Origin: a virus
IMG/VR virus record: IMGVR_UViG_3300030520_001144
Span: 1-24,357 of that record
DNA length: 24,357 nt
Strand: one strand, 5' to 3'
The notes under the pieces are model-generated. The model was not told the origin of the DNA, did not search any database, and was given only the letters and a program-made list of their open reading frames with translations. Each line of letters begins with the position of its first letter. Within the stretch, counting starts at the first letter, position 1. The translations under genes and the position numbers were made by a program. Positions 9,700 to 24,357 of this stretch are shown here, piece after piece.

Positions 9700-9710
9700 A
9701 GCGGTAAAAA

Positions 9711-9866: not shown

Positions 9867-9894
9867 CCAAATAACCAAATACGCACCTTATCGC

Positions 9895-10003: not shown

Positions 10004-10450
10004 ATGGCGACGAAGCGGACGATTGTGCCGGCGGGGCCGGCAAATTGGACCAAGACGCGCGAGCGGACCTTCCTCGAACATCTCGCGCTCAGTTCGAACG
10101 TAGCGGCATCCGAGCGGGTCGCGCTGGTGCCGCCGGGTGCCGCGTACCGTCACCGCATCAAGTCGGCGGACTTCCGCCGCAATTGGGAGACGGCGCTCAA
10201 GGAGGGCTATGACCGGCTCGAACTCGCGATGCTCGAGCGCGCGATCAACGGCGTCACCGTCGAGACGACGGCTGCGAACGGCAAGAAGACGAAGAAGATC
10301 GAATATTCCGAAGGTGCGGCGATGACGCTGCTTAAGGCGCACCGCGCTTCCGTCGCTGCGATCAACGCTTCTCAGGCTGCCAATGCGGCGGAGGCCGACA
10401 TCCTTCTGGTGATCGACGGCATGGCGCGGCGGATCGGTCATGGCGATTAA
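10004..10450 (+). CDS. Putative small terminase (GTA g1-like)
   Basis: A 148-aa protein in the place of the small terminase, which recognises or holds DNA for packaging by TerL. Residues about 18-75 (TRERTFLEHLALSSNVAASE to EGYDRLELAML) follow the pattern of phage helix-turn-helix packaging proteins: a helix, a short turn at SNVAA, a Tyr-Arg recognition stretch (AYRHRIKSADFRRNWE) and a third helix. The rest is helical, with a Lys-rich segment (about 85-95) that could touch DNA. GGGGAA lies 5 nt before the ATG. The stop lies 11 nt inside the large terminase gene, so the two are coupled. Family assignment is by pattern and position. Confidence 0.75.
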   Translation: MATKRTIVPAGPANWTKTRERTFLEHLALSSNVAASERVALVPPGAAYRHRIKSADFRRNWETALKEGYDRLELAMLERAINGVTVETTAANGKKTKKIEYSEGAAMTLLKAHRASVAAINASQAANAAEADILLVIDGMARRIGHGD

Positions 10451-11768
10451 GCGCGAACTGCTCAGTCTGACCGCGGGCGAGCTGGCGCGGATGAGCCAAG
10501 CGGACAGGGACAAGGCGTTTGAGGGGGTCGACGACGCCAGCCGCCAGACGCTGAAGACCTTTTGGCCGTTCCGGATCATGCCGGGGCAAGCGCCGCCGCC
10601 GGGCGACTGGCGCGTGTGGCTGCTGATGGCGGGGCGCGGCTTCGGCAAGACGCGGTGCGGTGCCGAATGGGTGCGGGGGCTGGCCGAACAGGATGGCCGC
10701 GCGCGGATCGCGCTGGTCGCGGCGACGATGGCGGAGGCGCGCAGCGTGATGGTGGAGGGCGTCAGCGGGCTGCTCGCGATTGCGCCGGCCGGCCTGCGCC
10801 CGCATTGGGAGCCATCGCTGCGCCGGCTCCGCTGGCCGGGCGGCGCGACCGCGACGCTGTTCGCGGCGAGCGAACCGGAAGGGTTGCGCGGGCCGCAGCA
10901 TAGCCACGCCTGGTGCGACGAGATCGCCAAATGGCCATATGGCATCGAGACGTGGGACAATCTCGCGATGGGGCTCCGGCTAGGCGACCGGCCGCGGATC
11001 GTGGCGACGACGACGCCGCGTCCGGTGCCGCTCGTGCGGATGCTGGTGGCGCGCGACGATGTCGCGACGACGGGCGGGCGGACGGAAGACAATCGCGAGC
11101 ATCTCGCGGCCGATTTCCTCGACGCGATGGCGGCGGGCTATGCCGGCACGCGGCTCGGCCGGCAGGAGTTGGACGGCGAGCTGATCGAGGAGGCCGAGGG
11201 CGCGCTGTGGAGCCGCGCGCTGATCGAGCGTTGCCGCGTGCGGCAGGCGCCCGGGGCGGTGCGCGTCGTCGTCGGTGTCGATCCGCCGGCGGGGGCGGGC
11301 GCGGCGTCGGATGCGTGCGGGATCGTCGTCGTGGCGCTTGGCGCGGACGGCATCGGCTATGTGCTCGAGGATGCCAGCGTGCAGGGGCTCGGCCCCGAGG
11401 GCTGGGCGCACGCGGTGTCGCTCGCCGCCGAACGGCACGATGCGGACCGGGTGATCGCCGAGGCGAACAACGGCGGCGCGATGGTCGAGAGCGTGTTGCG
11501 CGCGGCATCGGCGACGCTGCCGGTGAAGCTGGTTCATGCCTCGCGCGGAAAATCGGCGCGGGCGGAGCCGGTGGCGGTGCTCTACGAGAAGGGGCGGGTG
11601 GCGCATGTCGGCGCCTTCCCCGCGCTCGAGGACGAGATGGCGGGGCTGTTGCTCGACGGTTCTTACGTGGGCCCGGGGCGGTCGCCCGATCGCGCGGACG
11701 CGCTGGTGTGGGCGATGCATGCGCTGCTGCTGACGGGGCAGGCGCGGCCGGGATTGCGGACTTTGTAG
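10440..11768 (+). CDS. terL: Large terminase subunit (GTA g2-like)
   Basis: Packaging motor of 442 aa. The ATPase domain (about 45-215) has Walker A AGRGFGKT (64-71), an acidic pair at the end of Walker B (HAWCDE, D160/E161) and the coupling motif ATTTPRP (189-195). The RNase H-like nuclease domain (about 270-430) has its first acidic residue in VVVGVDPP (D281). The second is likely E341 in RVIAEANN, and the third is among D417/D420 in SPDRADALVWA. Length and order match GTA and HK97-type TerL proteins. All catalytic acids are present, so it is likely active. The ATG overlaps the upstream gene by 11 nt; the SD is weak, which suggests coupled translation. Confidence 0.96.
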   Translation: MAIKRELLSLTAGELARMSQADRDKAFEGVDDASRQTLKTFWPFRIMPGQAPPPGDWRVWLLMAGRGFGKTRCGAEWVRGLAEQDGRARIALVAATMAEARSVMVEGVSGLLAIAPAGLRPHWEPSLRRLRWPGGATATLFAASEPEGLRGPQHSHAWCDEIAKWPYGIETWDNLAMGLRLGDRPRIVATTTPRPVPLVRMLVARDDVATTGGRTEDNREHLAADFLDAMAAGYAGTRLGRQELDGELIEEAEGALWSRALIERCRVRQAPGAVRVVVGVDPPAGAGAASDACGIVVVALGADGIGYVLEDASVQGLGPEGWAHAVSLAAERHDADRVIAEANNGGAMVESVLRAASATLPVKLVHASRGKSARAEPVAVLYEKGRVAHVGAFPALEDEMAGLLLDGSYVGPGRSPDRADALVWAMHALLLTGQARPGLRTL

Positions 11769-11774
11769 ATAAAA

Positions 11775-11914
11775 TCCTCCCCTGCAAGGGGAGGGGGACC
11801 GCTCGCGAAGCGAGTGGTGGAGGGGTGTCAACCTCGGAGGCCGGGCGCCCGTCAGTCGCGTGTTCTACCCCTCCACCATCCTTCGGATGGTCCCCCTCCT
11901 CCTCCGGGGGAGGA
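11775..11914. repeat. Palindromic intergenic repeat, family A (A2)
   Basis: The left arm starts CCTCCCCTGCAAGGGGAGG and holds the hairpin CGCTCGCGAAGCGAG. The right arm (about 11865-11914) starts CTACCCCTCCACCATCC and ends in a different outer hairpin, CCTCCTCCGGGGGAGG. The two arms still pair over GGTGGAGGGGT and GGGGGACC. It fills the gap between the large terminase stop and the portal gene. The portal SD (AGAAGGA) starts 11-12 nt after the repeat, which therefore leaves it intact. Confidence 0.85.
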
Positions 11915-11938
11915 TCATAGAAAACAGAAGGATTCCCC

Positions 11939-13078
11939 ATGCGGCTTTTCGGATGGAAGGCGGCGCGCAGCGGCGCGCGGCCGGTGCTGACGCGCGCGTT
12001 CGGCGTGACCGGCGGGATCGGCGGGCCCACGCGAGGCGACTGGCCGAGTGGCTACGAGGCGCAGGTCCGCGCGGCCTATCTCGGCAATGCGGTGGCGCAA
12101 CGCGCGGTGCGGATCGTCGCGGAGAGCGCGGGCGGCGTCACGATTGATGTGGCGAGTGACGACCATCCGGTGGCGGGGCTGCTCGCAGGCATGGGCCAGC
12201 CGCTGATCGAGACGGTGGCGGCGCAGCTGCTGCTCCACGGCAACGCCTTCGTCCAGATCCTCGCAGACGCCGACGGCATGCCCGCGATGCTGTTCGCGCT
12301 GCGCCCCGAGCGCGTCACCATCGAGCCAGACGCGACCGGCTGGCCCGCCGCCTTCGTCTACCGCGCCGCCGGTCAGGCGTTGCGGATTCCGGTGGCGGCG
12401 CCCGATGGCCGGCCGGGCCTCGTCCACATCCGCACGATGCACCCGCTCGACGATCAATATGGCCTGGGCTGCCTGGGAGCCGCTGCCGGCCCGGTCGCGA
12501 TCCACAACGCCGCGACGCGCTGGAACAAGGCGCTCCTGGATAACGCAGCGCGACCCTCGGGCGCACTGGTTTATGATCCGGGCGACCCAGGCGCGACGCT
12601 GTCGCCCGATCAGTTCGCGCGGCTCAAGAGCGAGATGGAGGCGGGGTTTTCGGGGAGCGGCAACGCGGGGCGGCCGATGCTGCTCGAGGGCGGGCTCAAA
12701 TGGCAGGCGCTGAGCCTGACCCCTGCCGATATGGATTTCATCAACCTCAAGGCGGCGGCGGCGCGGGAAATCGCGCTGGCGTTCGGGGTGCCGCCGATGC
12801 TGCTCGGGCTGCCCGGCGACAACACCTACGCCAATTACAGCGAGGCCAATCGCGCGCTGTGGCGGCTGACGATCCTGCCGCTCGCGGACAAGATCGTCGC
12901 GGCGCTGGGGTGCGCGCTGGCGGCGTGGTGGCCGGACCTGACGCTGGCGATCGACCTCGACGCGATCCCCGCGCTGGCGGCGGACCGCACCGCATTGTGG
13001 TCGCAGGTGTCGGCGGCCGATTTCCTCGGCGACGACGAGAAGCGCGCGATTCTCGGCTTCGGGCCGCGAAATGCATGA
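11939..13078 (+). CDS. HK97-type portal protein (GTA g3-like)
   Basis: Dodecameric portal at the head vertex through which DNA enters and leaves. It has 379 aa, close to the usual 390-400 for GTA portals. Family signs are the N-terminal clip start (YLGNAVAQRAVRIVAE, about 44-59), the WNKALLDNAARPSG stretch (about 195-208), the MEAGFSGSGNAGRPMLLEGG loop (about 230-249) and the stem/crown region FGVPPMLLG followed by YANYSEANRALWRLTILPL (about 277-310). AGAAGGA lies about 7 nt upstream of the ATG, a strong SD. It ends within two codons of a family B repeat. Confidence 0.95.
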   Translation: MRLFGWKAARSGARPVLTRAFGVTGGIGGPTRGDWPSGYEAQVRAAYLGNAVAQRAVRIVAESAGGVTIDVASDDHPVAGLLAGMGQPLIETVAAQLLLHGNAFVQILADADGMPAMLFALRPERVTIEPDATGWPAAFVYRAAGQALRIPVAAPDGRPGLVHIRTMHPLDDQYGLGCLGAAAGPVAIHNAATRWNKALLDNAARPSGALVYDPGDPGATLSPDQFARLKSEMEAGFSGSGNAGRPMLLEGGLKWQALSLTPADMDFINLKAAAAREIALAFGVPPMLLGLPGDNTYANYSEANRALWRLTILPLADKIVAALGCALAAWWPDLTLAIDLDAIPALAADRTALWSQVSAADFLGDDEKRAILGFGPRNA

Positions 13079-13081
13079 CGC

Positions 13082-13160
13082 CGTTCCCCCGCGAAGGCGG
13101 GGGCCCAGGGCCGCAGGCGTCGCGCGTGAAACTCTGGACCCCCGCGTACGCGGGGGAACG
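13082..13160. repeat. Palindromic intergenic repeat, family B (B1)
   Basis: The outer arms CGTTCCCCCGCG (13082-13093) and CGCGGGGGAACG (13149-13160) are perfect reverse complements. Each arm also folds on itself (CCCCCGC-gaag-GCGGGGG on the left, CCCCCGC-gtac-GCGGGGG on the right). The middle carries the conserved CCCAGGG and CTCTGGAC parts. It fills the gap between the portal and the DUF6127 gene and ends 12 nt before the next ATG. Copies: 13499-13577 and 16858-16934. Confidence 0.9.
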
Positions 13161-13172
13161 AAGGAACGAAAT

Positions 13173-13493
13173 ATGACCGCCGATACCGAAAGCGCCCTGC
13201 TCGCGCGGCTCGTCGAGCAGGGGCAGACGCAGGGCGTCGATCTGCTCACCATCCGCGCGATCGCGGAGGAGGCAAGCGAATTGGGCGCGGCAAGGGCGCT
13301 CGAAAGGCTCGGCCTCGCCGATACCACCGCGCGCGCCGATCTCGGCGAGCTGCGCCAGCTGCTCTCGGCCTGGCGCGACGCCAAGCGCACCGCGCGCGAC
13401 GTCGTCATCGGCTGGGTGGTGCGCGTCACGCTCGCGGCGCTGATGCTGGGGCTGGCGGTGCGGCTGGGGCTCGTCGCGCTGGTGCGGTCGTGA
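13173..13493 (+). CDS. DUF6127-family small membrane protein
   Basis: A 106-aa protein found between the portal and protease genes in sphingomonad GTA-like clusters (recalled family DUF6127; function unknown). The first 75 residues are soluble and helical (ALLARLVEQGQTQGVDLL, then ARALERLGLADTTARADLGE). One hydrophobic segment (about 81-104, VIGWVVRVTLAALMLGLAV) follows and ends at VRS. The start is the ATG at 13173 with AAGGAA about 7 nt upstream; an open frame from 13071 would merely translate the repeat. A membrane anchor inside a head-gene block is unusual; a role in assembly at the membrane or in release is conceivable but unproven. Confidence 0.85.
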   Translation: MTADTESALLARLVEQGQTQGVDLLTIRAIAEEASELGAARALERLGLADTTARADLGELRQLLSAWRDAKRTARDVVIGWVVRVTLAALMLGLAVRLGLVALVRS

Positions 13494-13498
13494 CTCTC

Positions 13499-13577
13499 CG
13501 TTCTCCCGCGAACGCGGGAGCCCAGGGCTCCGAGCGCCGCGCCTGCAACTCTGGCCTCCCGCGTTCGCGGGAGAACG
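13499..13577. repeat. Palindromic intergenic repeat, family B (B2)
   Basis: The outer arms CGTTCTCCCGCG (13499-13510) and CGCGGGAGAACG (13566-13577) are perfect reverse complements, and each arm holds its own hairpin (CTCCCGC-gaac-GCGGGAG; CTCCCGC-gttc-GCGGGAG). The middle has GCCCAGGG and CTCTGGCC, as in B1. Stem substitutions relative to B1 occur on both strands of the stem, so pairing is kept. It fills the gap between the DUF6127 and protease genes. Confidence 0.9.
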
Positions 13578-13593
13578 AGGAAGGCAAGCAGCC

Positions 13594-14013
13594 ATGAGCC
13601 TCCGCTTCGCCGGCTACGCCGCGCTGTTCGACATGGTCGATCGCGGCGGCGACGTGATCCGCAAGGGCGCCTTCGCGCGCGCCGTCGCCGAGGGCGCCAA
13701 AAGCCTCCCCTTGCTGTGGCAGCACCAGCAGGGCGCGCCGATCGGCCGGATCGAACAGATCGCCGAGGATGCGCGCGGCCTGCGCGTGATCGGCCGGCTC
13801 ACCCCCGACGCCAAGCCCGCCGCCGACGCCGCCGCGCTGCTCCGCGACGGCGCGGTGGGGGGCTTGAGCTTCGGCTACCGCGTGCGCGCCAAGCACCACC
13901 GGCCGGGGGGCCGCGAGCTTACCGATCTCGACCTGGTCGAGGTCTCGCTGGTCACCTTTCCGATGCAGCCCGGCGCGCGCGTGCACGCCCTCCACGAGGA
14001 GAATGACTCATGA
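13594..14013 (+). CDS. HK97-type prohead protease (GTA g4-like)
   Basis: Serine protease of the herpesvirus-like fold that matures the capsid by trimming its N-terminal delta domain. It has 139 aa. The expected residues are visible: catalytic His in LWQHQQGAPIG (H44), Ser in GGLSFGYR (S92), and an acidic residue in DLVEVSLVTFPM (about 114-116). The start RFAGYAALFD is the family's normal N-terminus. The SD is the AGGAAGG stretch some 10 nt upstream, just after repeat B2. The stop overlaps the capsid gene start as ATGA, so protease and substrate are coupled. Confidence 0.95.
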   Translation: MSLRFAGYAALFDMVDRGGDVIRKGAFARAVAEGAKSLPLLWQHQQGAPIGRIEQIAEDARGLRVIGRLTPDAKPAADAAALLRDGAVGGLSFGYRVRAKHHRPGGRELTDLDLVEVSLVTFPMQPGARVHALHEENDS

Positions 14014-15167
14014 CCGACATCCAACAGGAGACGCCGATGTACGAGACCAAGCAGGAGACCGACCCGCTCGAGACGAGCTTCGCCGGCGCTGAGGACATCG
14101 CCTCGCTCAAGGCGGGGATGGCCGATCTCAAGGCCAAGCTTGACGGGGCCACCGTCGCGGCGGCGCGCGCGCCGCTCGACGGCGCCAAGGCGGCGACCGA
14201 CGCCAAGCGCCCGTTCGTCGAACGCTATCTGCGCCACGGCCACACCGGCGGCGTCGAGATCAAGGCGATCGACGGCACCGCGGACGCCACCGGCGGCTAT
14301 GTCGTGCCGCAGGAGATCGACGCGCAGATCGATTCGACGCTGATCGACATCTCGCCGATCCGGGGCATCGCCAACGTCGTCCAGGTCGGCTCGTCGGGCT
14401 ATCGCAAGCTGGTGACGGTGGGCGGCGTCAGCTCGGGCTGGGCCGCGGAGAACGCGCCGCGCGGCGATACGCCGACGCCCAATTTTGCCGAGATCGTGCC
14501 CGCCATGGGCGACCTCTTCGCCAATCCCGCGGCGACGCAGGCGATGCTCGACGATGCCGCCTTCGATGTCGAGGCGTGGCTCGCGGTCGAGATCGCGACC
14601 GAGTTCGCCCGCGCCGAGGGCGCTGCCTTCGTGGCGGGTGATGGCGTCAACAAGCCGAAAGGCTTCCTCACCGCGCCCAGGACCGCGCAGGACGACGGCG
14701 TGCGCCCGTTCGGCACGCTGCAATATCTCGCGACCGGCGTCGACGGCGATTTCCCGGCGAGCGAGCCCGAGGACAAGCTCATCGATCTCGTCCAGTCGCT
14801 GCGCGCGCCCTACCGGCAGGGCGCGGTATTCGTGATGAACAGCTTCACGCTTGCGATCATCCGCAAGATGAAGACCGCGGACGGTCATTTCATCTGGGCG
14901 GCGGGCCTTGCGGCGGGGCAGCCCGACACGCTGCTCGGCTATCCCGTCGTCGAGGCGGAGGACATGCCCGACATCGGATCGGGCACGACGCCGATCGCGT
15001 TCGGCAATTTCAAGGCGGGCTATCTGATCGCCGAGCGCGGCGAGACCGCGATCCTGCGCGATCCCTTCACCGCCAAGCCCTACGTCCATTTCTACGCGAC
15101 GCGGCGGATCGGCGGCACCGTCTCCAATTCGGAGGCGATCAAGCTGATGAAGTTCTCGGCGGCCTGA
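14010..15167 (+). CDS. HK97-type major capsid protein (GTA g5-like)
   Basis: Main shell protein. It has 385 aa, with an N-terminal helical delta domain (about 1-65, SLKAGMADLKAKLDG) expected to be removed by the protease. The HK97 fold follows, starting near AKRPFVERYLRHG (about 69-81) and ATGGYVVPQEI. Later marks are the E-loop region SSGYRKLVTVGG, the spine helix region (FDVEAWLAVEIATEFARAEG) and KPKGFL. Two starts are possible: 14010 (overlapping the protease stop, GAGGAG 8 nt upstream) and 14037 (AGGAG about 7 nt upstream). I keep 14010. Repeat A3 follows the stop and could stabilise the upstream, most demanded, message (inference). Confidence 0.96.
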   Translation: MTDIQQETPMYETKQETDPLETSFAGAEDIASLKAGMADLKAKLDGATVAAARAPLDGAKAATDAKRPFVERYLRHGHTGGVEIKAIDGTADATGGYVVPQEIDAQIDSTLIDISPIRGIANVVQVGSSGYRKLVTVGGVSSGWAAENAPRGDTPTPNFAEIVPAMGDLFANPAATQAMLDDAAFDVEAWLAVEIATEFARAEGAAFVAGDGVNKPKGFLTAPRTAQDDGVRPFGTLQYLATGVDGDFPASEPEDKLIDLVQSLRAPYRQGAVFVMNSFTLAIIRKMKTADGHFIWAAGLAAGQPDTLLGYPVVEAEDMPDIGSGTTPIAFGNFKAGYLIAERGETAILRDPFTAKPYVHFYATRRIGGTVSNSEAIKLMKFSAA

Positions 15168-15184
15168 GGCTTCCGCGCCGTAAA

Positions 15185-15340
15185 TCCTCCCCTGCAAGGG
15201 GAGGTGGCATCGCGCAGCGATGACGGAGGGGTGGAGGCCGGGCGATACGGACCCCGCGTCGCGCGACCGTATCGTATCGCCCGCCTCCACCCCTCCACCA
15301 CCGGCTTTGCCGGCGGTCCCCCTCCCCTTGGAGGGGAGGA
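15185..15340. repeat. Palindromic intergenic repeat, family A (A3)
   Basis: The left arm begins TCCTCCCCTGCAAGGGGAGG and continues to GGAGGGGTGGAGGC. The inner parts GGCGATACGG and CCGTATCGTATCGCC also pair. The right arm runs GCCTCCACCCCTCCACC to CCTCCCCTTGGAGGGGAGGA. It is the most symmetrical family A copy, so nearly the whole 156 nt can fold as one long structure. It lies between the capsid gene and the connector gene. Confidence 0.88.
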
Positions 15341-15371
15341 TGCAGCTTTACCATTCCAGCAGGAGCCCGCC

Positions 15372-15410
15372 ATGCGCCGCTTCCTACGCCTTGCCGGCGC
15401 CGCGCGATGA
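15372..15410 (+). CDS. Possible 12-aa leader peptide before the connector gene
   Basis: ATG at 15372 follows GCAGGAG at a good SD distance (about 7 nt) and reads MRRFLRLAGAAR, ending TGA at 15408-15410. The stop overlaps the connector start as ATGA. The connector ATG has no SD of its own, so ribosomes may arrive by reading this short frame first. It is basic and too short to fold. It could be a coupling leader, or what is left of a longer gene after the repeat arrived. Being so short, it could also be chance. Confidence 0.4.
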   Translation: MRRFLRLAGAAR

Positions 15411-15943
15411 GCGTCGCGCCCGAAATCGCCGCCGCGGCACTCGCCGACGCCAAGGCCTATCTCCGGATCGACACCACCGACGAGGATGCGGTGCTCGGCC
15501 TGCTGGTCGGCGCCGCGATCTCGCTGTGCGCGCGCTTCACCGGCCTGGCCCCGTTCGTCGCCGATCGCAGCGACACCGTCGCCGCGACCAGCCCCGAATG
15601 GCAACGCCTCCCCGCGACGCCGGTCGGCGCGATCGTCTCGGTCTCGACGCTCGATCCCGCCGGCGTCGTCGCGACGCTGCCGGTCGACGCCTACGCGATC
15701 GACATCGATGCGAACGGCGACGGCTGGGTGCGGCCGAGGCGTCCGGTCGCGGTCGCGCGGCTGCGGGTCGGCTATCATGCCGGCCTCGCGCCCGACTGGC
15801 CGTCGCTGCCCGAGCCGCTACGGCAGGGGATCGTGCGGCTGGTCGCGCACATGTTCGCGCACCGCGACGCGCCCGACGATGCGGGTCCGCCCGCGGTGGT
15901 CGCGGCGCTGTGGCGGCCTTGGCGGCGGATGCGGCTGGCATGA
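15407..15943 (+). CDS. Head-tail connector, gp6-like (GTA g6-like)
   Basis: A 178-aa adaptor ring protein that binds below the portal. The N-terminal helical part (AAALADAKAYLRIDTTDEDAVL, about 9-30, then LVGAAISLCARFTG) is the hallmark of the gp6/gp15-type connector fold. The central beta part (about 68-120) has the RLPATPVGAIVSV and WVRPRRPVAVARLRVGYHAG stretches. A last helical segment (PLRQGIVRLVAHMFAHRD, about 137-154) follows. The end is Arg/Trp-rich (WRPWRRMRLA). Its start overlaps the 12-aa leader and its stop overlaps the next gene, both as ATGA. Confidence 0.88.
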   Translation: MSVAPEIAAAALADAKAYLRIDTTDEDAVLGLLVGAAISLCARFTGLAPFVADRSDTVAATSPEWQRLPATPVGAIVSVSTLDPAGVVATLPVDAYAIDIDANGDGWVRPRRPVAVARLRVGYHAGLAPDWPSLPEPLRQGIVRLVAHMFAHRDAPDDAGPPAVVAALWRPWRRMRLA

Positions 15944-16260
15944 GCGAGTTCGCCGGCGGGCTTACGCAACGCGGGCTGGTCCAGCGCCGCAGCACCGACC
16001 GCGACGATCTCGGCGGCGCCGACGGCGACTGGGCGACGCTCGCGGAGGTCTGGGCGGCACTGGAGCCGATCGCGCCCGCCGCTTGGGGGCAGGGCGACCG
16101 GCCGAACGCCGCGCCGCGCTGGCGGGCGAGCCTGCGCACCACCGACGTCGTGCCGGGCGACCGGCTGCAATGGCGCGCGCGCTTGCTGGTGGTGCGATCG
16201 GTCGATGCCGATCCCGCCGCGCCCGACCGCCTGACGCTCGTGCTGGAGGAGGATCGATGA
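15940..16260 (+). CDS. Head-closure/stopper protein (GTA g7-like)
   Basis: A 106-aa small beta-barrel protein of the phage head-tail adaptor family (SPP1 gp16 type), expected to close the head and join the tail. Typical signs are the opening GGLTQRGLVQRRSTDRDDLGG, the WATLAEVWAALEPI strand pair (about 31-44) and a middle R-x-S-LRTTDVVPGDRLQWR (about 62-80). The closing strand is DRLTLVLEED. It overlaps both neighbours by 4 nt (ATGA). Length matches the family. The family is assigned from pattern and from its place between the connector and tail terminator genes. Confidence 0.85.
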   Translation: MSEFAGGLTQRGLVQRRSTDRDDLGGADGDWATLAEVWAALEPIAPAAWGQGDRPNAAPRWRASLRTTDVVPGDRLQWRARLLVVRSVDADPAAPDRLTLVLEEDR

Positions 16261-16463
16261 CCGCCATAACTGATCTGTCGCCCGCGCTGGTCGCTGCGCT
16301 CGCCGGCGCCGAGGCGCGCGCCGCGGCCGCGATCGCCGCCAAGTTGCCGACCGACGTCATGGTCGTGCTGACCGACGACGGTATCGCGCTGACCGGTCGC
16401 ACCCTGTCGATCCGCGCGCAGACCGACAGCCGGTTGCGCGACTTCGCGGGCCTGGTGCGATGA
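16257..16463 (+). CDS. Small unknown protein between stopper and tail terminator, 68 aa
   Basis: No family recognised. The product is a helical, Ala-rich first half (SPALVAALAGAEARAAAAIA, about 8-27), then a beta-like segment with VMVVLTDDGIALTG (about 34-47), and it ends RLRDFAGLVR. The last half loosely recalls the end of HK97 gp10-like neck proteins, which would fit the place, but the gene is much shorter. It overlaps both neighbours by 4 nt (ATGA on each side), which supports it as a real gene. RcGTA has no separate gene here, as far as I recall. Confidence 0.7.
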   Translation: MTAITDLSPALVAALAGAEARAAAAIAAKLPTDVMVVLTDDGIALTGRTLSIRAQTDSRLRDFAGLVR

Positions 16464-16855
16464 GCACCGCCGCGCAGGCGCTCCAGCGCGCATTAATCGC
16501 GACGCTCCGGTCAGCGCCGTTCGCGCCGCTACTCACCGGGATATACGACGGGCCGCCCGCAGCCGCGATCTGCCCGTTCGTCGCGATCTCGGACGGATCG
16601 ACCAGCGACTGGAGCACCAAGGACCGGCGCGGCCGCGAGCACCGCCTCTCGATCGCGATCTGGGACGACGGCGCGGCCCCGGCGCGGCTGCACGATCTGC
16701 TCGGCCAGGCGCAGGATGCGATCGAGGCGATGCCGCGCGCGCTGCCCGGCCATGCCATCGCCAGCCTCGTCTTCCTGCGCGCGCGCGTCGTCCGCGACCC
16801 CGACGGGCCGTGGGCAGGCCGCCTCGATTACCGCGTGCGCACGCTGGAGGACTGA
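16460..16855 (+). CDS. Tail terminator, DUF3168 (GTA g8-like)
   Basis: A 131-aa protein of the DUF3168/gp17-like family that caps the tail tube and joins it to the head. The N-terminal helix AAQALQRALIATLRSAPF leads to the family motif TGIYDGPPAAAICPFVAISDGS (residues 26-47). Next come the RGREHRLSIAIWDD strand (about 57-70) and the helix ARLHDLLGQAQDAIEAM. The beta end FLRARVVRDPDGPWAGRLDYRVRTLED is also typical. Its start overlaps the 68-aa gene by 4 nt. Repeat B3 begins 3 nt after the stop. Confidence 0.9.
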   Translation: MSTAAQALQRALIATLRSAPFAPLLTGIYDGPPAAAICPFVAISDGSTSDWSTKDRRGREHRLSIAIWDDGAAPARLHDLLGQAQDAIEAMPRALPGHAIASLVFLRARVVRDPDGPWAGRLDYRVRTLED

Positions 16856-16857
16856 AT

Positions 16858-16934
16858 CGTACGCCGGCGAAAGCCGGAGCCCAGAGCCGCACGCGTGGCG
16901 CCTGCTTCCCTGGACCCCGGCTTTCGCCGGGGCA
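16858..16934. repeat. Palindromic intergenic repeat, family B (B3)
   Basis: Left arm: CGCCGGCGAAAGCCGGAG then CCCAGAG. Right arm: CTGGACCCCGGCTTTCGCC then GGGG. The arms pair with each other over CCGGCGAAAGCCGG and CCGGCTTTCGCCGG, and each also forms a local hairpin. It differs from B1/B2 at several stem positions but keeps pairing and the CCCAG/CTGG core. It fills the gap before the major tail gene, whose strong SD lies downstream of it. Confidence 0.87.
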
Positions 16935-16960
16935 CTATTCATTCAAGAAGGAGAATCGCT

Positions 16961-17368
16961 ATGTCCGCAGAAGCCGGCAGTGCTTTCCTGCTCAAGATCG
17001 GCGACGGCGGCACGCCGCCCGTCTTCGCCACCGTCGCGGGGCTGCGCACCACAATGCTCAGCATCGCAGGCGAGCTGGTGACGATCACCAATAAGGACAG
17101 CGGCGGCTGGCGCGAGCTGCTGTCGGGCGCGGGCACGCGCAGCGTGTCGGTCGCAGGCAGCGGCGTGTTCACGGGGTCGGCGGCGGAGGCGCGGCTCAAG
17201 GCCAATGCGCTCGCCGGCACGCTCGACGACTATCAGCTCTGCTTCGCCAGCGGCGGCACGATCCAGGGTCGCTTCCTGCTGACCAAGCTCGACTATAGCG
17301 GCGACTTCAATGGCGAGCGATCCTATACGGTTGCGCTCGAATCCTCTGGCTCGGTGGCAAGCTCGTGA
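16961..17368 (+). CDS. Major tail tube protein, TP901-1 type (GTA g9-like)
   Basis: Tail tube subunit of 135 aa, the usual GTA length. Typical stretches are GSAFLLKIGDGGTPPVFATV (about 6-25), TTMLSIAGELVTITNKDS (about 30-47), GWRELLSGAGTRSVSVAGSGVF and the end GDFNGERSYTVALESSG. The start is the ATG at 16961 with a very strong SD (AAGAAGGAG, about 6 nt upstream), the best in the cluster. That fits the high copy number of this protein per particle. The stop overlaps the next gene start as GTGA. Confidence 0.92.
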   Translation: MSAEAGSAFLLKIGDGGTPPVFATVAGLRTTMLSIAGELVTITNKDSGGWRELLSGAGTRSVSVAGSGVFTGSAAEARLKANALAGTLDDYQLCFASGGTIQGRFLLTKLDYSGDFNGERSYTVALESSGSVASS

Positions 17369-17694
17369 CCGCGCCCGACACGACCGCCCCCGCCAACCCC
17401 GCGCGCGGCGAGGCGACGCTGACGCTGGCCGGCCAGCCGATGACGGTGCGCCCGAGCTTCGCCGCGCTGGTCGCCGCCGAGCAGCAGGTCGGCCCCCTGT
17501 TCGCGCTGGTCGAGACCGCCGCGGCGGGCAAGCTGACGCTCGCCGACACCGTCGCGCTGATCTTCCACTGCCTCGTCGACAGGCCCGGCGACATGACGCA
17601 GCAGACGCTCGGCGACGAGGTCGTCCAGCTCGGCATCGCGGTGCTCACCCCGGTGCTCCAGGTGCTGCTCGGGCAGATCATCAAGGGACTGTGA
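17365..17694 (+). CDS. Tail assembly chaperone (GTA g10-like, TAC_11)
   Basis: A 109-aa chaperone of the GTA g10 family, thought to load the tape measure during tail assembly. The opening NPARGEATLTLAGQPMTVRP (about 10-29) and the helix FAALVAAEQQVGPLFALVETA (about 31-51) are diagnostic. The end is hydrophobic (VLTPVLQVLLGQIIKGL). The start codon is GTG, overlapping the major tail gene stop as GTGA. A hairpin element (17705-17724) and a stop separate it from the second chaperone, so no ribosomal frameshift product of the lambda G-GT type is evident. Confidence 0.88.
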   Translation: MTAPDTTAPANPARGEATLTLAGQPMTVRPSFAALVAAEQQVGPLFALVETAAAGKLTLADTVALIFHCLVDRPGDMTQQTLGDEVVQLGIAVLTPVLQVLLGQIIKGL

Positions 17695-17704
17695 GGATAT
17701 GCCC

Positions 17705-17724
17705 CTCTCCCGCGAGCGGGAGAG
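17705..17724. repeat. Short palindromic element (C) before second chaperone
   Basis: CTCTCCCGC (17705-17713) and GCGGGAGAG (17716-17724) form a perfect 9-bp stem with a GA loop. It is flanked by CCC and by GAGAGGGA. It looks like one half of a larger palindromic unit whose other half is missing. The purine-rich flank AGGAGAGGG (17723-17731) is the likely SD of the next gene, so folding could limit access to it. Confidence 0.75.
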
Positions 17725-17735
17725 GAGAGGGACGG

Positions 17736-17942
17736 ATGATGACCAGTTTCACCGCCGCCGCCGCCCGCCTCGCCGGTCTCGCCGGCGCGATCGCCGGTTG
17801 GCGGCCCGACGAGTTCTGGCGCGCGACGCCGGCCGAGCTCGAGACCGTACTCGCCGCCTTCGCGTCTCCCGGCGCGAGTGCCGCGCCGCCGCCCGATGCC
17901 GCCGCGCTGGCGCGCCTCAAGGAGCAATATCCCGATGGATGA
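17736..17942 (+). CDS. Second tail assembly chaperone (GTA g10.1-like, TAC_6)
   Basis: A 68-aa protein of the small TIGR02216/Phage_TAC_6 family. The core ARLAGLAGAIAGWRPDEFWRATPAELETVL (about 10-39) is nearly diagnostic: the W-x-P-D-E-F-W and T-P-A-E-L pieces are the family signature. The end is Ala/Pro-rich, then LKEQYPDG. Two adjacent ATG codons (17736 and 17739) could both serve; the purine-rich SD sits at the edge of repeat C. The stop lies 8 nt inside the tape measure gene. With the preceding gene it makes the usual chaperone pair ahead of the tape measure. Confidence 0.88.
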   Translation: MMTSFTAAAARLAGLAGAIAGWRPDEFWRATPAELETVLAAFASPGASAAPPPDAAALARLKEQYPDG

Positions 17943-18516
17943 GACGATCGAGACGCTGCTCGTCGGTGTCCGCGCCGATACCGCGAGCTTCGCGCAGGAT
18001 GCCGCGACGATGCAGGCGTCATTGCAGACATCGCTCGGCAGCGGCGCCGCCAATGCCGGCAGCCTGATCGAGGCGGGCCTCGCCAAGGCGATCGCATCGG
18101 GCAAGCTCGGCTTCGCGGACCTCGAGAAGACCGCGCTCGCCGTCCTCTCGAACATCGCGGCGCAGGCGGTGACGAGCGGCCTGTCGTCGCTGCTCGGCGG
18201 GGTAAGCGGAAGCGGGGGCGGGCTGCTGTCGGCGGGCACGAGCCTGATCGGGTCGCTGTTCGGCCTGCCCGGTCGCGCGACGGGCGGTCCGGTGTCGCCG
18301 GGCCGGCCCTACATGGTCGGCGAGCAGGGCCCCGAGCTGTTCGTGCCGACCTCGGCGGGCAGCGTCGCGCCCGCCGCGTCGGGCGCCGCGCCGCGCGCGG
18401 TCAACGTCGCGATCAGCATCAATGCGCCGACCGCGACCGAACCGCAGGCGCTCGCACGATCGAGCCGGCAGGTCGCGCGCGCGGTCAATCGCGCGCTGGC
18501 GCAGGCGGAGCGGTAG
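17935..18516 (+). CDS. Very short tail tape measure protein (GTA g11-like)
   Basis: A 193-aa tape measure, far shorter than the 700-2000 aa of most siphophages but near the roughly 220 aa of RcGTA. The N-terminal helical part (about 14-80, including FADLEKTALAVLSNIAAQAV) is followed by a Gly/Ser-rich hydrophobic stretch (about 81-111, LLGGVSGSGGGLLSAGTSL). The GRATGGPVSPGRPYMVGEQG motif with PELFVP (residues 113-138) is found at the end of many tape measures. The helical tail is Arg/Ala-rich. Start at 17935, overlapping the chaperone by 8 nt. The gene ends 1 nt before the next ATG. A short tail is implied. Confidence 0.9.
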   Translation: MDETIETLLVGVRADTASFAQDAATMQASLQTSLGSGAANAGSLIEAGLAKAIASGKLGFADLEKTALAVLSNIAAQAVTSGLSSLLGGVSGSGGGLLSAGTSLIGSLFGLPGRATGGPVSPGRPYMVGEQGPELFVPTSAGSVAPAASGAAPRAVNVAISINAPTATEPQALARSSRQVARAVNRALAQAER

Positions 18517-18517
18517 C

Positions 18518-20839
18518 ATGGGCCAGGGCATCGGATGGTGGCTGGCGGCCGACGCCGACGCGGCGCGCGCGCAGAAACGCGCGACGGGCTGGGTCAAGCG
18601 CTTCGATCCGCGATTCTGGACGGTCAATTTCCCGCGCCCGATGATGGCGGCGGTGACGACGACGGGTCCGCAGGCGATGCGCGTCGATGCGGTGTTCTAC
18701 CGCACCGACGATCTCGCCGGGCTGATCTGGGCGTCGGCGGATAGCGTCGATCATCCGCTGCTGCGCTACGAGACCGCGGGCGACTATCGCGGCTGCACGC
18801 TCGCCTTCCACTGGCAATCGTCCGGGCTGATGCCGCTCGACGCGATCAACGGCCCGACGCTGACGATCGAGGGGCGCGACGCGTCTGGCACCGCGCGCAG
18901 CTGGTTCGTCCGGTTATGGAATTATGCGAGCGGCGACGCGCAGGATGCTCGAATATCGATCGATTTCGACAAGCTCGACGGTGGCTTCCTGCTGCCGGGC
19001 GAGGCGGACCCGGTGTGGGCGGGCGACGTCGACCGGATGTTCGTCTCGCTGGTGCCGCCGGGCTATACCGGCGCCGACGGCGAGCTTGCCGCATCCGCCC
19101 AGGCCTGGGTCGAGATCGACGCCATCGCCTGCGACGGCGCGGGCTCGACGCTGGCGATCGGCGACGGGCTCGTGCCGCCGCACGGCCTGTGCATCGCCAC
19201 CGGCTATGACGACGCCTACGACCAGACGCCCGCGCGGATGCTGCGCCAGATCGTCGCGCTCGGCTATCGCGGCGCGATCGACCATTATGTCGGGATGAGC
19301 CATTATTTCCGGCTCGAATGGAATGCGGGCGCGGGGCTTCACCTGATCAGCCTGGCGGGCGGCGTGCTCAACGTCGCCGCCGACGCCTGGCACCGCGATT
19401 TCCTGGCGCGCGCGACCGCGCTCGGCTTCGAGGTCATCCTGTCGATGTCCTACGAATTGCTCGACCAGCATGTCTGGAACGACTGGAAGCAGCGCGGACC
19501 CGACGGCGTGCAGGCGCTGACCGGCTGGGTGCCACCCTCGACGCTGCTGTCGCCGTGCGGCGCCGGCGCGATGAACTATCTCAAGACGATAGCGACCACT
19601 TTTGCGACAATGGCGAAGGCAGTCGGGCGGGTGCATTTCCAGCTCGGCGAACCCTGGTGGTGGGTGCGCGCCGACGGCACGATCTGCCTTCACGACGATG
19701 CGGCGCGAGCCGCGCTCGGGCCCGGCGTCGATGCGGTGGCGAGCGTCAGGGGGACGCTGACGCCCGCGCAGACCGCGGTGCTCGATGCGGCCGGCGCGTT
19801 GCTCGCGAGTTCGACTGCGGCGATCGCGGCTGCGGTGAAGGTCGTGGCGCCCGACGCCGAGACGCTGCTGCTCGCCTATCTGCCCACCGTGCTCGCCGCC
19901 GACAGCCCCGAACTTCGCCGCGCCGATCTGCCCGTTGGCTGGGCGAGCCCGGCGTTCGACCGACTCCAGCTCGAGGATTACGACTTCGTGCTCGCGGGCG
20001 ACGCCGGTGCTTCCGCACGGGGTGCCGCGACCGCCACCGCGCGGCTTGGCTATCCGCCCGAGCAGCAGGATTATCTCACGGGCTTCGTGCTCAACGCGCC
20101 CGATGCCGCGACCGAGTGGGCGCGCATCGCCGACGCGGCGGCCGAGGCCCGTGCGCGCGGCGTGCCGCGGATCTTCGTCTGGGCGCTGCCGCAGGTGGCG
20201 CGCGACGGCTTCACAATCTTCGATCTGGGGGAGGGGGCCTTGAACGCCTTCGACGATGTCGATTTTCCGCTGGCGCTCGGCGCGCAGGCAAGCGCCACGC
20301 CCGGCTTCTCGACCGCGATCGTCACGACCGCGGCGGGTGTCGAGCAGCGCAATGCCGACTGGGCCGACGCCCGGCTGCGCTTCGATGCCGGGCCGGGGGT
20401 GCGCGCCGAAACAGATATCGCGACGCTGATCGGTTTCTTCCGGGCACGCCGCGGCGCCGCTCGCGCGTTTCGCTTCCGCGATCCGTTCGACTTTGGCTCG
20501 GACGGCGACCAGACTCTCGGCACCGGCGACGGCGTCGCGACCAGCTTCGCGCTCGTCAAAAGCTACGGCACCGGCGATCCGCAGGTCCGCGCGATCACGC
20601 GGCCGGTGGCGGGCAGCGTCTCGGTCGCGCTCGGCGGCGAGGTGCTGGCGAGCGGCTGGAGCCTGCTCGACGGCGGAATCGTCTCGTTCGAGACGGCACC
20701 CGCGGTGGGCGTCGCGATCACCGCGCGCTATCTGTTCGACGTCCCCGTGCGCTTCGCCGAAGATACGCTCGAGGTCAGTCTCTCGACCTTCCTCGCCGGC
20801 GAGGCGCCGAGCGTGCCGCTGGTCGAGGTGCGGGAATGA
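18518..20839 (+). CDS. Tail sheath/TIM-barrel-like protein fused to DUF2460 distal tail domain
   Basis: A 773-aa protein in the position of GTA g12 (normally about 210 aa). Residues about 577-773 are a DUF2460/TIGR02217 domain, the GTA distal tail protein (FSTAIVTTAAGVEQRNADW at 597-615, IGFFRARRGAARAFRFRDPFDFGSDG at 638-663). The first 220 residues look like beta-rich sheets (RVDAVFYRTDDLAGLIW and ISIDFDKLDGGFLLPG). About 222-570 looks like a TIM barrel with GH-like strands: HGLCIATGYDDAYDQTP, VILSMSYELLDQHVW, VHFQLGEPWWWV (candidate acid E378) and IFVWALPQV. I recall sheath-like annotations for relatives of this fusion. Start ATG 18518; it abuts the tape measure and overlaps the hub gene by 4 nt. 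Confidence 0.8.
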   Translation: MGQGIGWWLAADADAARAQKRATGWVKRFDPRFWTVNFPRPMMAAVTTTGPQAMRVDAVFYRTDDLAGLIWASADSVDHPLLRYETAGDYRGCTLAFHWQSSGLMPLDAINGPTLTIEGRDASGTARSWFVRLWNYASGDAQDARISIDFDKLDGGFLLPGEADPVWAGDVDRMFVSLVPPGYTGADGELAASAQAWVEIDAIACDGAGSTLAIGDGLVPPHGLCIATGYDDAYDQTPARMLRQIVALGYRGAIDHYVGMSHYFRLEWNAGAGLHLISLAGGVLNVAADAWHRDFLARATALGFEVILSMSYELLDQHVWNDWKQRGPDGVQALTGWVPPSTLLSPCGAGAMNYLKTIATTFATMAKAVGRVHFQLGEPWWWVRADGTICLHDDAARAALGPGVDAVASVRGTLTPAQTAVLDAAGALLASSTAAIAAAVKVVAPDAETLLLAYLPTVLAADSPELRRADLPVGWASPAFDRLQLEDYDFVLAGDAGASARGAATATARLGYPPEQQDYLTGFVLNAPDAATEWARIADAAAEARARGVPRIFVWALPQVARDGFTIFDLGEGALNAFDDVDFPLALGAQASATPGFSTAIVTTAAGVEQRNADWADARLRFDAGPGVRAETDIATLIGFFRARRGAARAFRFRDPFDFGSDGDQTLGTGDGVATSFALVKSYGTGDPQVRAITRPVAGSVSVALGGEVLASGWSLLDGGIVSFETAPAVGVAITARYLFDVPVRFAEDTLEVSLSTFLAGEAPSVPLVEVRE

Positions 20840-21657
20840 GCGCGCCCGCCTGGCTGCAGGGCGCGCTCACCACGATGGCGCTGTGCTGGCGGCTCGACCG
20901 CGCGGACGGCGTGACGATCGGCTTCACCGCGCACGACCGCGACCTGACGATCGCGGGCGTCGTCTATCGGTCGAGCCCCGGCATGCTGCCCTCCGCCATC
21001 CACCAGTCGGACGGCTTCGACGTCGACACGCTCGACATCGACGGCGCGCTGACCAGCGACGCGATCACCGAGGCCGATCTGTCGGCGGGGCGCTGGGACG
21101 GTGCGACGCTGAGCCTGTTCGCGATCGACTGGACCGATCCCGCCGCCGATCCGCTACAGATCGCGCGCGGCGAGATCGGCGACGTCTCGATCAGCGACGA
21201 CGCCTTCACTGCCGAGTTGCGCGGACCGACCGCGCTGCTCGAGCGCCCGGTGGTCGAGCAGACCGCGCCCGACTGTCGCGCCACCCTGGGCGACCGTCGC
21301 TGCCGGATCGACCTGGCGCCGCGCACGCGGATCGCGACGGTGGCGACGGCAGCCGGGCAGGGGCTCACGCTGGATCAGGCCGAGCCCTCGGCCAACGCCT
21401 ATGGCTATGGCCGGCTGCGCTGGCTCGACGGCGCCAATGCGGGGCTCGTCGCGTCGATCGCGGCGTCGGACGGGACGGGGGCGACGCTGCGCGATCCGCC
21501 TGCCTATCCGACCGCCCCCGGTGCCTTGGTCGAGCTCGTCGAGGGTTGCGACCGGCGCTTCGAGACCTGCTGCACGCGCTTCGCCAACGCCGCCAATTTC
21601 CGCGGCGAGCCCTTCCTGCCGGGCACCGATCTGCTCACCCGCTACGGCACCGACTGA
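20836..21657 (+). CDS. Tail hub protein, DUF2163 (GTA g13-like)
   Basis: A 273-aa baseplate hub protein. The N-terminal DUF2163 part (about 5-165) has WLQGALTTMALCWRLDRADG and TIGFTAHDRDL. The C-terminal BR0599-type part has GCDRRFETCC and FANAANFRGEPFLPGTD (residues 249-265). Six Cys are visible: C17, C147, C156, C238, C245 and C246. C147, C156 and two of the last three fit the four-Cys iron-sulfur site that I recall from the RcGTA hub structure. The start overlaps the upstream stop as ATGA. The stop codon TGA (21655-21657) shares its last base with the next start (TGATG). Confidence 0.92.
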   Translation: MSAPAWLQGALTTMALCWRLDRADGVTIGFTAHDRDLTIAGVVYRSSPGMLPSAIHQSDGFDVDTLDIDGALTSDAITEADLSAGRWDGATLSLFAIDWTDPAADPLQIARGEIGDVSISDDAFTAELRGPTALLERPVVEQTAPDCRATLGDRRCRIDLAPRTRIATVATAAGQGLTLDQAEPSANAYGYGRLRWLDGANAGLVASIAASDGTGATLRDPPAYPTAPGALVELVEGCDRRFETCCTRFANAANFRGEPFLPGTDLLTRYGTD

Positions 21658-22133
21658 TGCCGCGACAGATGACACCGGCGCAGGCCGCGATCGTCGCGGC
21701 GGCGCGCGGCTGCGTCGGCGCGCGGTTCCAGCTGCACGGGCGGCAGGTCGCGACCGGGCTCGACTGCGTCGGCGTCGCCGCGCTGGCCTATGGGCGCGAC
21801 CATGTGCCCGCGGGATACGCGCTGCGCGGTGGTGACGTCATGACGATCAAGGCGGCGATCGAGGTCGCAGGCTTCGTGCGGACCGGGGTGCCGTGCCCCG
21901 CCGACCTGCTGCTGCTCGCGCCCGGCCCCTATCAGCATCATCTCGCGATCCTGACCGATCGCGGCTTCGTCCACGCCGATGCCGGGCTGCGCCGCGTCGT
22001 CGAGACACCCGGATTCCCATCGTGGCAATTGATCGGCGCCTTCAGCCCCTCCCCTTCAGGGGAGGGGTTGGGGTGGGGCGCATCTCGGAGCGCCGCGTTT
22101 GTGGCGAGGCCCCACCCCCGACCCCTCCCCTGA
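21657..22133 (+). CDS. NlpC/P60-type tail peptidase, C-terminus extended by repeat (GTA g14-like)
   Basis: Cell-wall amidase/peptidase expected to help the tail cross the envelope. The nucleophile is C37 in ATGLDCVGVAALAYG; the partner His is H95 in PYQHHLAIL, and H106 in GFVHAD is also present. It has 158 aa. The natural protein seems to finish around SWQLIGAF (residues 122-129). From about residue 130 the frame runs through repeat A4 (22046-22143) and stops inside it (TGA at 22131-22133), adding about 28 Pro/Gly/Ser/Arg residues. The core is intact, so the enzyme is probably active. Confidence 0.88.
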   Translation: MPRQMTPAQAAIVAAARGCVGARFQLHGRQVATGLDCVGVAALAYGRDHVPAGYALRGGDVMTIKAAIEVAGFVRTGVPCPADLLLLAPGPYQHHLAILTDRGFVHADAGLRRVVETPGFPSWQLIGAFSPSPSGEGLGWGASRSAAFVARPHPRPLP

Positions 22134-22143
22134 AGGGGAGGGG
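22046..22143. repeat. Palindromic repeat, divergent family A (A4), partly coding
   Basis: The left arm CCCCTCCCCTTCAGGGGAGG then GGTTGGGGTGGGGC pairs with the right arm GCCCCACCCCCGACCC then CTCCCCTGAAGGGGAGGGG. Each arm has its own hairpin (CCCCTCCCC-ttca-GGGG and so on). It is a related but distinct subtype: TTCA loop and GGGTTGGGGTGGGGC spacer instead of GGAGGGGTGGAGG. It overlaps the 3' end of the peptidase gene and ends before the tail-tip SD (AAGAAGGA). Confidence 0.88.
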
Positions 22144-22161
22144 AGTAAGAAGGACATCGTC

Positions 22162-24357
22162 ATGGCGACACTCGTGCTCACCGCGGTCGGGACCTTGGTC
22201 GGTGGCCCGATCGGCGGCGCGATTGGCGCGGCGATCGGCAGTACGATCGACCGCTCTATCTTCACGCCCAAGGGCGCGGTCGGCGCGCGGCTCGACAGTC
22301 TGGCGGTGCAAAGCTCGTCCTACGGCAGTGACCTGCCAAAAATGTTCGGCACGATGCGCGCCGCCGGCAGCGTGATCTGGTCGACCGACCTGCAGGAGAA
22401 CAAGCACAAGTCGAGCGCGGGCAAGGGCCAGCCCAAGACGACCAACTATACCTATTCGGCCTCGTTTGCGGTGGCGTTGTCGGCGCGGCCGATCCTCGCC
22501 ATCCAGCGCATCTGGGCGGACGGGCTGTTGCTGCGCGGCGCGGCGGGCGACTGGAAGAGCGATGTCGGCGCGTTCCGCGTCTATCTGGGCGACGAGACCC
22601 AGGCGATCGATCCGCTGATCGCGGCGGCGCAGGGGATCACGACGACCCCTGCGCATCGCGGGCTCGCCTATGTCGTGTTCGAGCAGCTTCAGCTTGCCGA
22701 CTATGGCAATCGCATCCCGTCGCTGAGCTTCGAGATCGTGGCGGACGACGGGCTCGTCACGCTGGCGACGATCGCGGGGCTATTGTCGGACGGCGACGTC
22801 GCCGGCACCGGCGGCCCCCTGCTGACGGGCTATGCCGCCGCGGGCGACAGCCTGCGCGGCGCGATCGAGGGGCTGGCGGCGGCGCTGCCCGTCGCCTTCG
22901 CCGATGGTCCCGACGGTGTCACGTTGGTCGACGAGTCCGCGGCGCCGACCGCGATCGACGCGACCGAACTCGGCAGTGCCGCCAACGGGAAGGCTGCGCC
23001 CAAAGTCGTGCTCGATCGCCAGGCGGCGGGCACGCTCAACGAAGCGATCGCGATCAGCTATTATGACCCGGCGCGCGGCTATCAGCTCGGCTCGCAGAGC
23101 GCGAGGCGCGATGCGTCTGCCAGGCGTGCGGGTGCGATCGATCTCGCCGCCGCGGTCGATGCCGCGAGCGCCAAGGCGATCGCCGAGGCGCGGTTGGCGC
23201 GCGAGTGGGCAGGGCGGACGACCGCGACCCTGACGCTGCCGTGGCGCCGGCTCGATATCGGCGCGGGCGCGCTGCTCTCGCTGCCCGGGCAGGACGGCGT
23301 CTGGCGCGTCACGACGCGCGGCTTCGAGGCGATGCTCGCGACGCTGACCGCGCAGCGTCTGCCAGGAGAGGCAGCGCCGCTACCGGTCGCGAGCGCGGGG
23401 GCGGGGGCGACCCAGGCCGATCTTCCTGCCGGTCCGACGACGCTCGCGCTGCTCGATCTGCCCTCGCTGGGCGACGATCCGCCGACCACGCCGACGCTGC
23501 TGATCGCCGCGGCGGGCGCGTCGGCGGTTTGGCGCAAGGCGACGGTGATGGCGAGCCTCGACGCGGGCGCGAGCTGGCAGACGATCGGCCAGACCGCGGC
23601 GGCGGCGGTGATCGGCACGACGCCGGACGCGTTGGTGCCGGGCAGTACGATGCTCACCGATGCGGTGACCGTGATCGACGTCGTTCTGCTCGACGATGCG
23701 ATGATACTGACCGGCAGCGACGCGACCGAAGCCTCCGCGACCGCCAATCTCGCGCTGATCGGCGACGAACTCGTCCAGTTCGCGACGGCGACGCAGACCG
23801 CGCCCCGCAGCTTCCGCCTGTCCGGCCTGCTGCGCGGGCGGCGCGGAACCGAATGGGCGATGGCGGGGCATGTCGCGGGCGAACGCTTCGTACTGGTCGA
23901 TGCCGACACGCTGTTGCCATGGACGCTGCCGACCAGCGCCATCGGATCGACCGTGATGATCGCGGCGAGCGGCGTCGGCGATGCCTCCCCCGCCGAGGCG
24001 AGCATCGTCTTCCAGGCGCGCGCGCTGCGTCCGCCGGCGCCCGTCGCGATCTCGGCTGCAACCCAGGCCGACGGCTCGATCCTCGTCGGCTGGACGCGCC
24101 GCAGCCGGATCGGCTGGGCGTGGCTCGACGATATCGACGCCCCGCTCGGCGAGGAGAGCGAGCGCTATCGCCTCACCGCGACGCGCGCGGGGGGCACGGC
24201 GATCTCGGTCGACACCGCCACGCCCGCGGCCACGCTCGCCGCCGCGGACCTCGCCGCGATCGGCGGCAGCGGCGCGCTGTCGTTAGCGATCGTCCAGATC
24301 GGCACCGCCGCCGCGACCCTGCCGCCCGCCACCTTCACCCTCATGCCGGGAGCCTGA
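22162..24357 (+). CDS. Tail tip/hub protein, Phage-tail_3 (GTA g15-like, short form)
   Basis: A 731-aa distal tail protein. The N-terminal Gly/Ala-rich segment (LVGGPIGGAIGAAIGSTIDR, about 10-29) leads to SYGSDLPKMFGTMRAAGSVIWSTD (about 54-77), the Lys-rich loop and the NYTYSASFAVALSARPILAIQRIWADG block (about 95-121). PSLSFEIVADDG (about 192-203) ends that part. A Phage-tail_3-like part follows from about 225 to 430, then beta-rich repeats and LSGLLRGRRGTEWAMAGH (about 554-571), which the GTA family shares. RcGTA g15 is about 1300 aa with a TIM-barrel insert; no such insert is visible here. The ATG at 22162 has AAGAAGGA about 7 nt upstream. The window ends exactly at its stop. Confidence 0.9.
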   Translation: MATLVLTAVGTLVGGPIGGAIGAAIGSTIDRSIFTPKGAVGARLDSLAVQSSSYGSDLPKMFGTMRAAGSVIWSTDLQENKHKSSAGKGQPKTTNYTYSASFAVALSARPILAIQRIWADGLLLRGAAGDWKSDVGAFRVYLGDETQAIDPLIAAAQGITTTPAHRGLAYVVFEQLQLADYGNRIPSLSFEIVADDGLVTLATIAGLLSDGDVAGTGGPLLTGYAAAGDSLRGAIEGLAAALPVAFADGPDGVTLVDESAAPTAIDATELGSAANGKAAPKVVLDRQAAGTLNEAIAISYYDPARGYQLGSQSARRDASARRAGAIDLAAAVDAASAKAIAEARLAREWAGRTTATLTLPWRRLDIGAGALLSLPGQDGVWRVTTRGFEAMLATLTAQRLPGEAAPLPVASAGAGATQADLPAGPTTLALLDLPSLGDDPPTTPTLLIAAAGASAVWRKATVMASLDAGASWQTIGQTAAAAVIGTTPDALVPGSTMLTDAVTVIDVVLLDDAMILTGSDATEASATANLALIGDELVQFATATQTAPRSFRLSGLLRGRRGTEWAMAGHVAGERFVLVDADTLLPWTLPTSAIGSTVMIAASGVGDASPAEASIVFQARALRPPAPVAISAATQADGSILVGWTRRSRIGWAWLDDIDAPLGEESERYRLTATRAGGTAISVDTATPAATLAAADLAAIGGSGALSLAIVQIGTAAATLPPATFTLMPGA

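Follow-up and report, generated by a model that had tools for sequence, protein, structure and literature searches.

Host-genome repeats occupy the open junctions of a sphingomonad GTA virion operon

We used comparative genomics to study the palindromic elements that lie between the genes of a virion operon of the gene transfer agent (GTA) type. We find that these elements belong to the host genome and not to the GTA. Very probably they are REP-type repeats, a family of the CGTC kind (family B) together with two GC-rich families (A and C), that accumulate behind stop codons throughout sphingomonad chromosomes, the virion operon included. Hairpin-forming repeats of this sort stand behind stop codons genome-wide in an entire group of bacteria from soil and water, and because the cluster, which resembles the RcGTA, is part of the host chromosome, its virion genes collect repeats like any long operon. 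Our analysis demonstrates the repeat nature of the elements, the rule of their placement, the use of common junctions by related clusters and the turnover of families at these junctions. What we describe is for the most part a familiar type of repeat at a new location; the sharing of junctions and the turnover of repeat families within a GTA operon are new here. Host repeats thereby shape the spacing of a phage-derived operon, and overlapping genes can be separated by such inserts without breaking either gene.

Operon layout and its repeat elements

The window, by which we mean the whole stretch of 24,357 bases that was analyzed, is a stand-alone IMG/VR record. Its right part carries a virion cluster of 17 genes that runs from terL (10440-11768) to the tip gene (22162-24357). 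The cluster is RcGTA-like in protein content, with an HK97 portal, prohead protease and capsid, a gp8-type connector, a TP901-1-type tail protein, a TAC-type chaperone, a Rcc01695-type distal tail protein, a baseplate hub and a relative of megatron. An independent gene caller reproduced the virion genes with the exception of the peptidase start (21669 versus 21657). The tight packing noted in a preliminary description of this DNA is borne out: nine junctions overlap or abut, at -4, -8, -1 or +1 nt, and the seven gaps (170, 94, 100, 239, 105, 41 and 28 nt) are at exactly the positions first claimed. The same description placed a palindrome in every gap, directly behind a stop codon, and most of this claim stands. 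Long inverted repeats with arms of 24-46 nt that are 78-92% complementary occupy five gaps (terL/portal, portal/DUF6127, DUF6127/protease, capsid/connector and tail terminator/major tail), whose fold z-scores range from -4.3 to -9.4 relative to dinucleotide shuffles, while the junction between the first and second chaperone genes (chap1/chap2) holds only a 20-nt single-hairpin fragment. The palindrome follows the stop codon by 1-16 nt in six of the seven gaps, the exception being peptidase/tip, where the repeat is read through.

Family A is found on both sides of the operon boundary. At terL/portal, its element (11774-11915; like all repeat elements described here, assigned to neither strand) comprises inverted repeats I8 and I6 (gap z -6.4), starts 5 nt past the terL stop and leaves the portal Shine-Dalgarno (SD) sequence AGAAGGA intact downstream. 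The match of this element is the capsid/connector element of a close relative, L090. The window's own capsid/connector element (15184-15341; I10 and I11; z -9.4) lies 16 nt past the capsid stop in the gap at 15168-15406. A leader ORF of 12 codons, which has an SD of its own and is predicted on the + strand at 15372-15410, has a stop that overlaps the connector start (ATGA), and a similar short ORF is present in L090 and in another close cluster, L009. Outside the virion operon, a family A element (9705-9868; I7 and I12; gap z -6.4) stands 5 nt past the stop of a host ABC-F ATPase gene.

Family B elements occupy portal/DUF6127 (13081-13161; I4; z -6.7), DUF6127/protease (13498-13578; I2, with 85% complementary arms; z -7.4) and tail terminator/major tail (16857-16937; I1; z -4.3). 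The first of these is a CGTT-tagged REP dimer with CCCAGG tails, and 33 members of the family were counted in 800 kb from the genome of the nearest relative. The single short hairpin at chap1/chap2, CTCTCCCGCGAGCGGGAGAG (17704-17723; z -2.1), is a probable half-element, an arm of which appears to supply the next SD sequence; at this junction L090 has a full-length relative of this type (z -12.1). Lastly, the family C element (22046-22143; I3) lies inside the 3' end of the NlpC/P60-like peptidase ORF (21657-22133), which runs through the element and stops within its right arm. In all relatives the peptidase aligns only to residues 1 to approximately 130 of 158 (tblastn), ending near the start of the repeat, and therefore the last 29 or so residues and the stop codon are repeat-encoded. 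A known structured RNA was rejected as the identity of the repeats because they have no Rfam match.

Common junctions with changing occupants

We compared ten close clusters: the window, L009, L090, L091, L010, L095, L096, L094, L011 and L093. Inserts in these clusters are confined to the window's seven gap junctions, and the other nine are tight wherever readable. The occupants, on the other hand, differ by cluster, with other repeat families or none at a given junction. For instance, terL/portal carries family A in the window, family D in L009 and L090, family C in L091, C' in L096 and a canonical CGTC REP pair in L011, and it is empty, with a spacer of 22-27 nt, in L010, L095 and L093. Portal/DUF6127 is a 4-nt overlap in L091, L010, L095, L011 and L093, as is DUF6127/protease in L010, L095, L011 and L093, and the chaperone genes overlap in L095, L011 and L093. 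In a further example, tail terminator/major tail holds family D in L009, family C in L091, L011 and L093, and a 12-nt spacer in L095. Window elements often find their best match at some other junction, as the peptidase/tip element does at tail terminator/major tail of L093. Judged by alignment, the capsid/connector element looks clearly like a copy inherited in the window and L090 (219 bits), and it is the sole clear case. Given that the same seven junctions hold different families or none, the positions are common and the occupants turn over. Distant relatives open other junctions too (for example, protease/capsid and tape measure/DUF2460), so the nine tight junctions are not forbidden in principle. 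Separately, we observed that the L011/L092 cluster (Sphingomonas sp. PR090111-T3T-6A) is without the DUF2460 gene and most of DUF2163 (approximately 14524-14787 in L011); because of these missing parts, this GTA is probably decaying.

The capsid boundary shows a different kind of structure. Over all loci, T-tract terminators follow the protease gene in 36 of 99 gaps and the capsid gene in 36 of 136, the remaining junctions having 0-3 each. Six of the ten close clusters (L010, L011, L091, L093, L095 and L096) have an intrinsic terminator after capsid, and the same six have a small gp77-family ORF (PF23148) after capsid, where translated. Neither the capsid terminator nor the gp77-like ORF survives in the window, L009 and L090, where a repeat and a 12-codon ORF are found instead. 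Terminators before and after the capsid gene suggest that capsid is a separate transcription unit in many sphingomonad GTAs, and these sequence comparisons show that the conserved post-capsid device is a terminator and not a REP. The position of the terminator gives the strongest indication that a 3' structure behind capsid is of importance.

Could the repeats have a role in expression? One reading, which we consider unlikely, is that the palindrome junctions serve the GTA operon of sphingomonads as a constant map for expression: a small, unchanging set of junctions would stay open and structured, with repeats of interchangeable families taking the part that the post-capsid terminator plays in the relatives. 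We find it improbable, too, that the repeats were selected as a set for messenger ends and particle stoichiometry, with protection from 3' exonucleases or attenuated read-through yielding an excess of capsid and tail tube. Both the window clade and most relatives do have a strong hairpin behind capsid (z <= -3 from capsid to the next gene in 72 of 112), and the repeat of the window clade stands in the post-capsid place, one of the two, with that after protease, where the relatives' true terminators concentrate. However, repeats also lie between low-copy genes (terL/portal, portal/DUF6127 and peptidase/tip), the gene order of L095, L010 and L093 is otherwise similar without most of the repeats, and 98 of 112 loci have a 4-nt overlap at the end of the major tail protein gene. 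In E. coli, REPs stabilize the mRNA upstream of them and, when no more than 15 nt from a stop, can stall ribosomes (PMC5082802), which is in keeping with an effect on stoichiometry, but a + strand T tract is absent from all window elements. For want of this tract the elements were rejected as intrinsic terminators, and a scan for such terminators (GC hairpin plus T tract, + strand) returned no match in the window's seven gaps. Under our preferred reading, in which host repeats accumulate behind stop codons, a modest stabilization of mRNA 3' ends or ribosome stalling at each junction would be a likely by-product, tolerated and not required. The common junctions with their changing occupants are a ready-made series, filled in some clusters and empty in others, in which effects of REPs at stop codons on GTA protein ratios could be compared.

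Placement across the nearest relative's genome

The nearest relative found is L009, from genome G001 (a MAG), with a capsid 94% identical to that of the window. We searched 800 kb of G001 using as queries the window elements and those from the GTA of L009 itself, and merged the copies. The resulting 81 copies fall into 48 in tandem gaps, 20 in convergent gaps, 9 that are mostly coding and 4 at edges; none is in a divergent gap, and the searched sequence contains 113 divergent junctions totalling 23 kb. Just 9 of the 81 copies are mostly coding although 88-92% of the G001 sequence is coding, and several of these nine sit at gene ends. Within tandem gaps, copies lie at a median of 10 nt from the upstream stop, 45 of the 48 being within 34 nt. 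When folding is scored independently of family assignment, z <= -3 is reached by 50 of 222 gaps between tandem genes, by 23 of 59 between convergent and 3 of 95 between divergent genes, and by 1 of 120 coding segments. The preference for junctions that had been proposed from the window thus holds across the 800 kb: the families seldom occur in genes, are missing from divergent gaps and stay close to stop codons.

We find no support for a pattern special to the GTA cluster. In the suf Fe-S operon of G001 (contig C12, 187095-206217; L188 and L189), which looks alike, strong palindromes occupy 5 of 18 junctions, including sufC/sufD, sufD/sufS and both sides of sufA, and placement after ORFs has been published for sphingomonad REPs (PMC3733652). 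On the strength of the suf operon and the genome-wide counts, GTA specificity of the repeats was rejected. The GTA is nevertheless more repeat-decorated than most long gene runs, though only mildly. In L009, palindromic gaps make up 5 of 24 junctions of the GTA run versus 14 of 170 in the 15 other runs with 8 or more genes; about 7 of the 16 virion junctions of the window are decorated. Across 144 non-redundant loci and gaps of 40-350 nt, strong folding is found in 232 of 596 GTA gaps (39%) versus 51 of 204 flanking tandem gaps (25%).

Based on these data, we propose the following history. Ancestral junctions would have been 4-nt overlaps or spacers of 10-30 nt, and an insert that came in after the stop codon but before the following SD would open such a junction, which could later be reused or have its occupant replaced. 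Inserts may arrive at many places, with loss of any that hit a gene or the region before a promoter; purifying selection, rather than target choice, would then be the main filter. Insertion is itself the presumed route by which the repeats arrived. We found no flanking target duplication of fixed length around 43 elements genome-wide, so transposition is no more than a candidate mechanism.

That result also bears on the alternative of a mobilizing enzyme that targets stop/start junctions, with the 4-nt ATGA overlap as a safe site whose duplication keeps both genes intact. We regard this alternative as doubtful, since no fixed duplication flanks the 43 elements and no such enzyme is known. In its favor, the 6 nt that come behind the TGA of the upstream gene are slightly more similar to those behind the downstream ATGA than in re-paired controls (36% versus 27%; 47 sites, p about 0.001), but the set is small and includes two sites of L089 that duplicate the window's as well as unrelated spacers, and an ATGA on both sides is needed anyway for both genes to survive. 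In a second line of evidence for targeting, approximately 17 nt with the protease start flank a 115-nt insert on both sides at DUF6127/protease of L106, which looks like a doubling of the junction.

Comparison with known repeats and GTAs

REP/BIME elements of E. coli are of the GTAG type and linked to RAYT transposases. That the repeats described here are RAYT-mobilized REPINs of the GTAG type is highly improbable: paired inverted architecture, many copies and extragenic placement would agree with this, but the tags are CGTN or none, no GTAG is seen at the window element ends by inspection, and the RAYT link raised in the preliminary description finds no counterpart in the nearest relative, there being no Y1 transposase (PF01797) in the MAG G001 and one in just 6 of 26 related genomes. 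The window elements share with REP/BIME an intergenic and transcribed position directly behind stops and inside operons (PMC5082802), whereas their sequence is unrelated.

As to the operon itself, gene order and families are those of RcGTA (HK97 portal, protease, capsid, DUF2460-type distal tail, baseplate hub and megatron), and the order of virion genes from terL to megatron is conserved in host chromosomes. Repeat decoration, in contrast, is not described for known GTAs in the literature searched. Our search for repeats in GTA clusters and for sphingomonad REPs by name returned nothing relevant beyond PMC3733652 and PMC5082802, and we found no published description of families A and C in this literature.

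Among the closest known systems are the CGTC-tagged REPs of Alphaproteobacteria, which occur as dimers in unidirectional and convergent placement, with intragenic cases (Di Nocera et al. 2013, PMC3733652). The CGTC-1 REPs of Sphingomonas wittichii lie at a short distance from upstream ORF ends, a placement identical to the one seen here, and CGTC REPs have no dedicated transposase (PMC3733652). As in these REPs, of which CGTC-1 is an example, family B has a tag, a short GC stem, a loop of 4-5 nt and a CCA tail; again as in these REPs, the repeats of the window form extragenic inverted dimers between tandem or convergent ORFs near the 3' end of the upstream ORF, are occasionally read through into ORF ends and are without a dedicated transposase. 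Unlike CGTC REPs, families A and C are tagless, and several families occur within one operon. The tags of family B are CGTT or CGTA and those of the relatives' family E are CGTG; the canonical CGTC tag is found as well, both in the genome of the nearest relative and at terL/portal of L011. In a scan for tag, stem and CCA, 22 of 26 CGTT, CGTG or CGTA matches were intergenic, and control tags gave 3 matches in all. Family B has a 7-bp stem (CCCCCGC/GCGGGGG) and the loop GAAG, which is of fitting length, and it runs on into CCCAGG, thereby providing the unpaired CCA tail; CGTC REPs have stems of 8-9 bp with A/T in the first two positions. Because A/T pairs are missing from its stem base, membership is close and not strict, and by its sequence features we would place family B, in this close rather than strict sense, in the published CGTC-tagged REP superfamily of Alphaproteobacteria.
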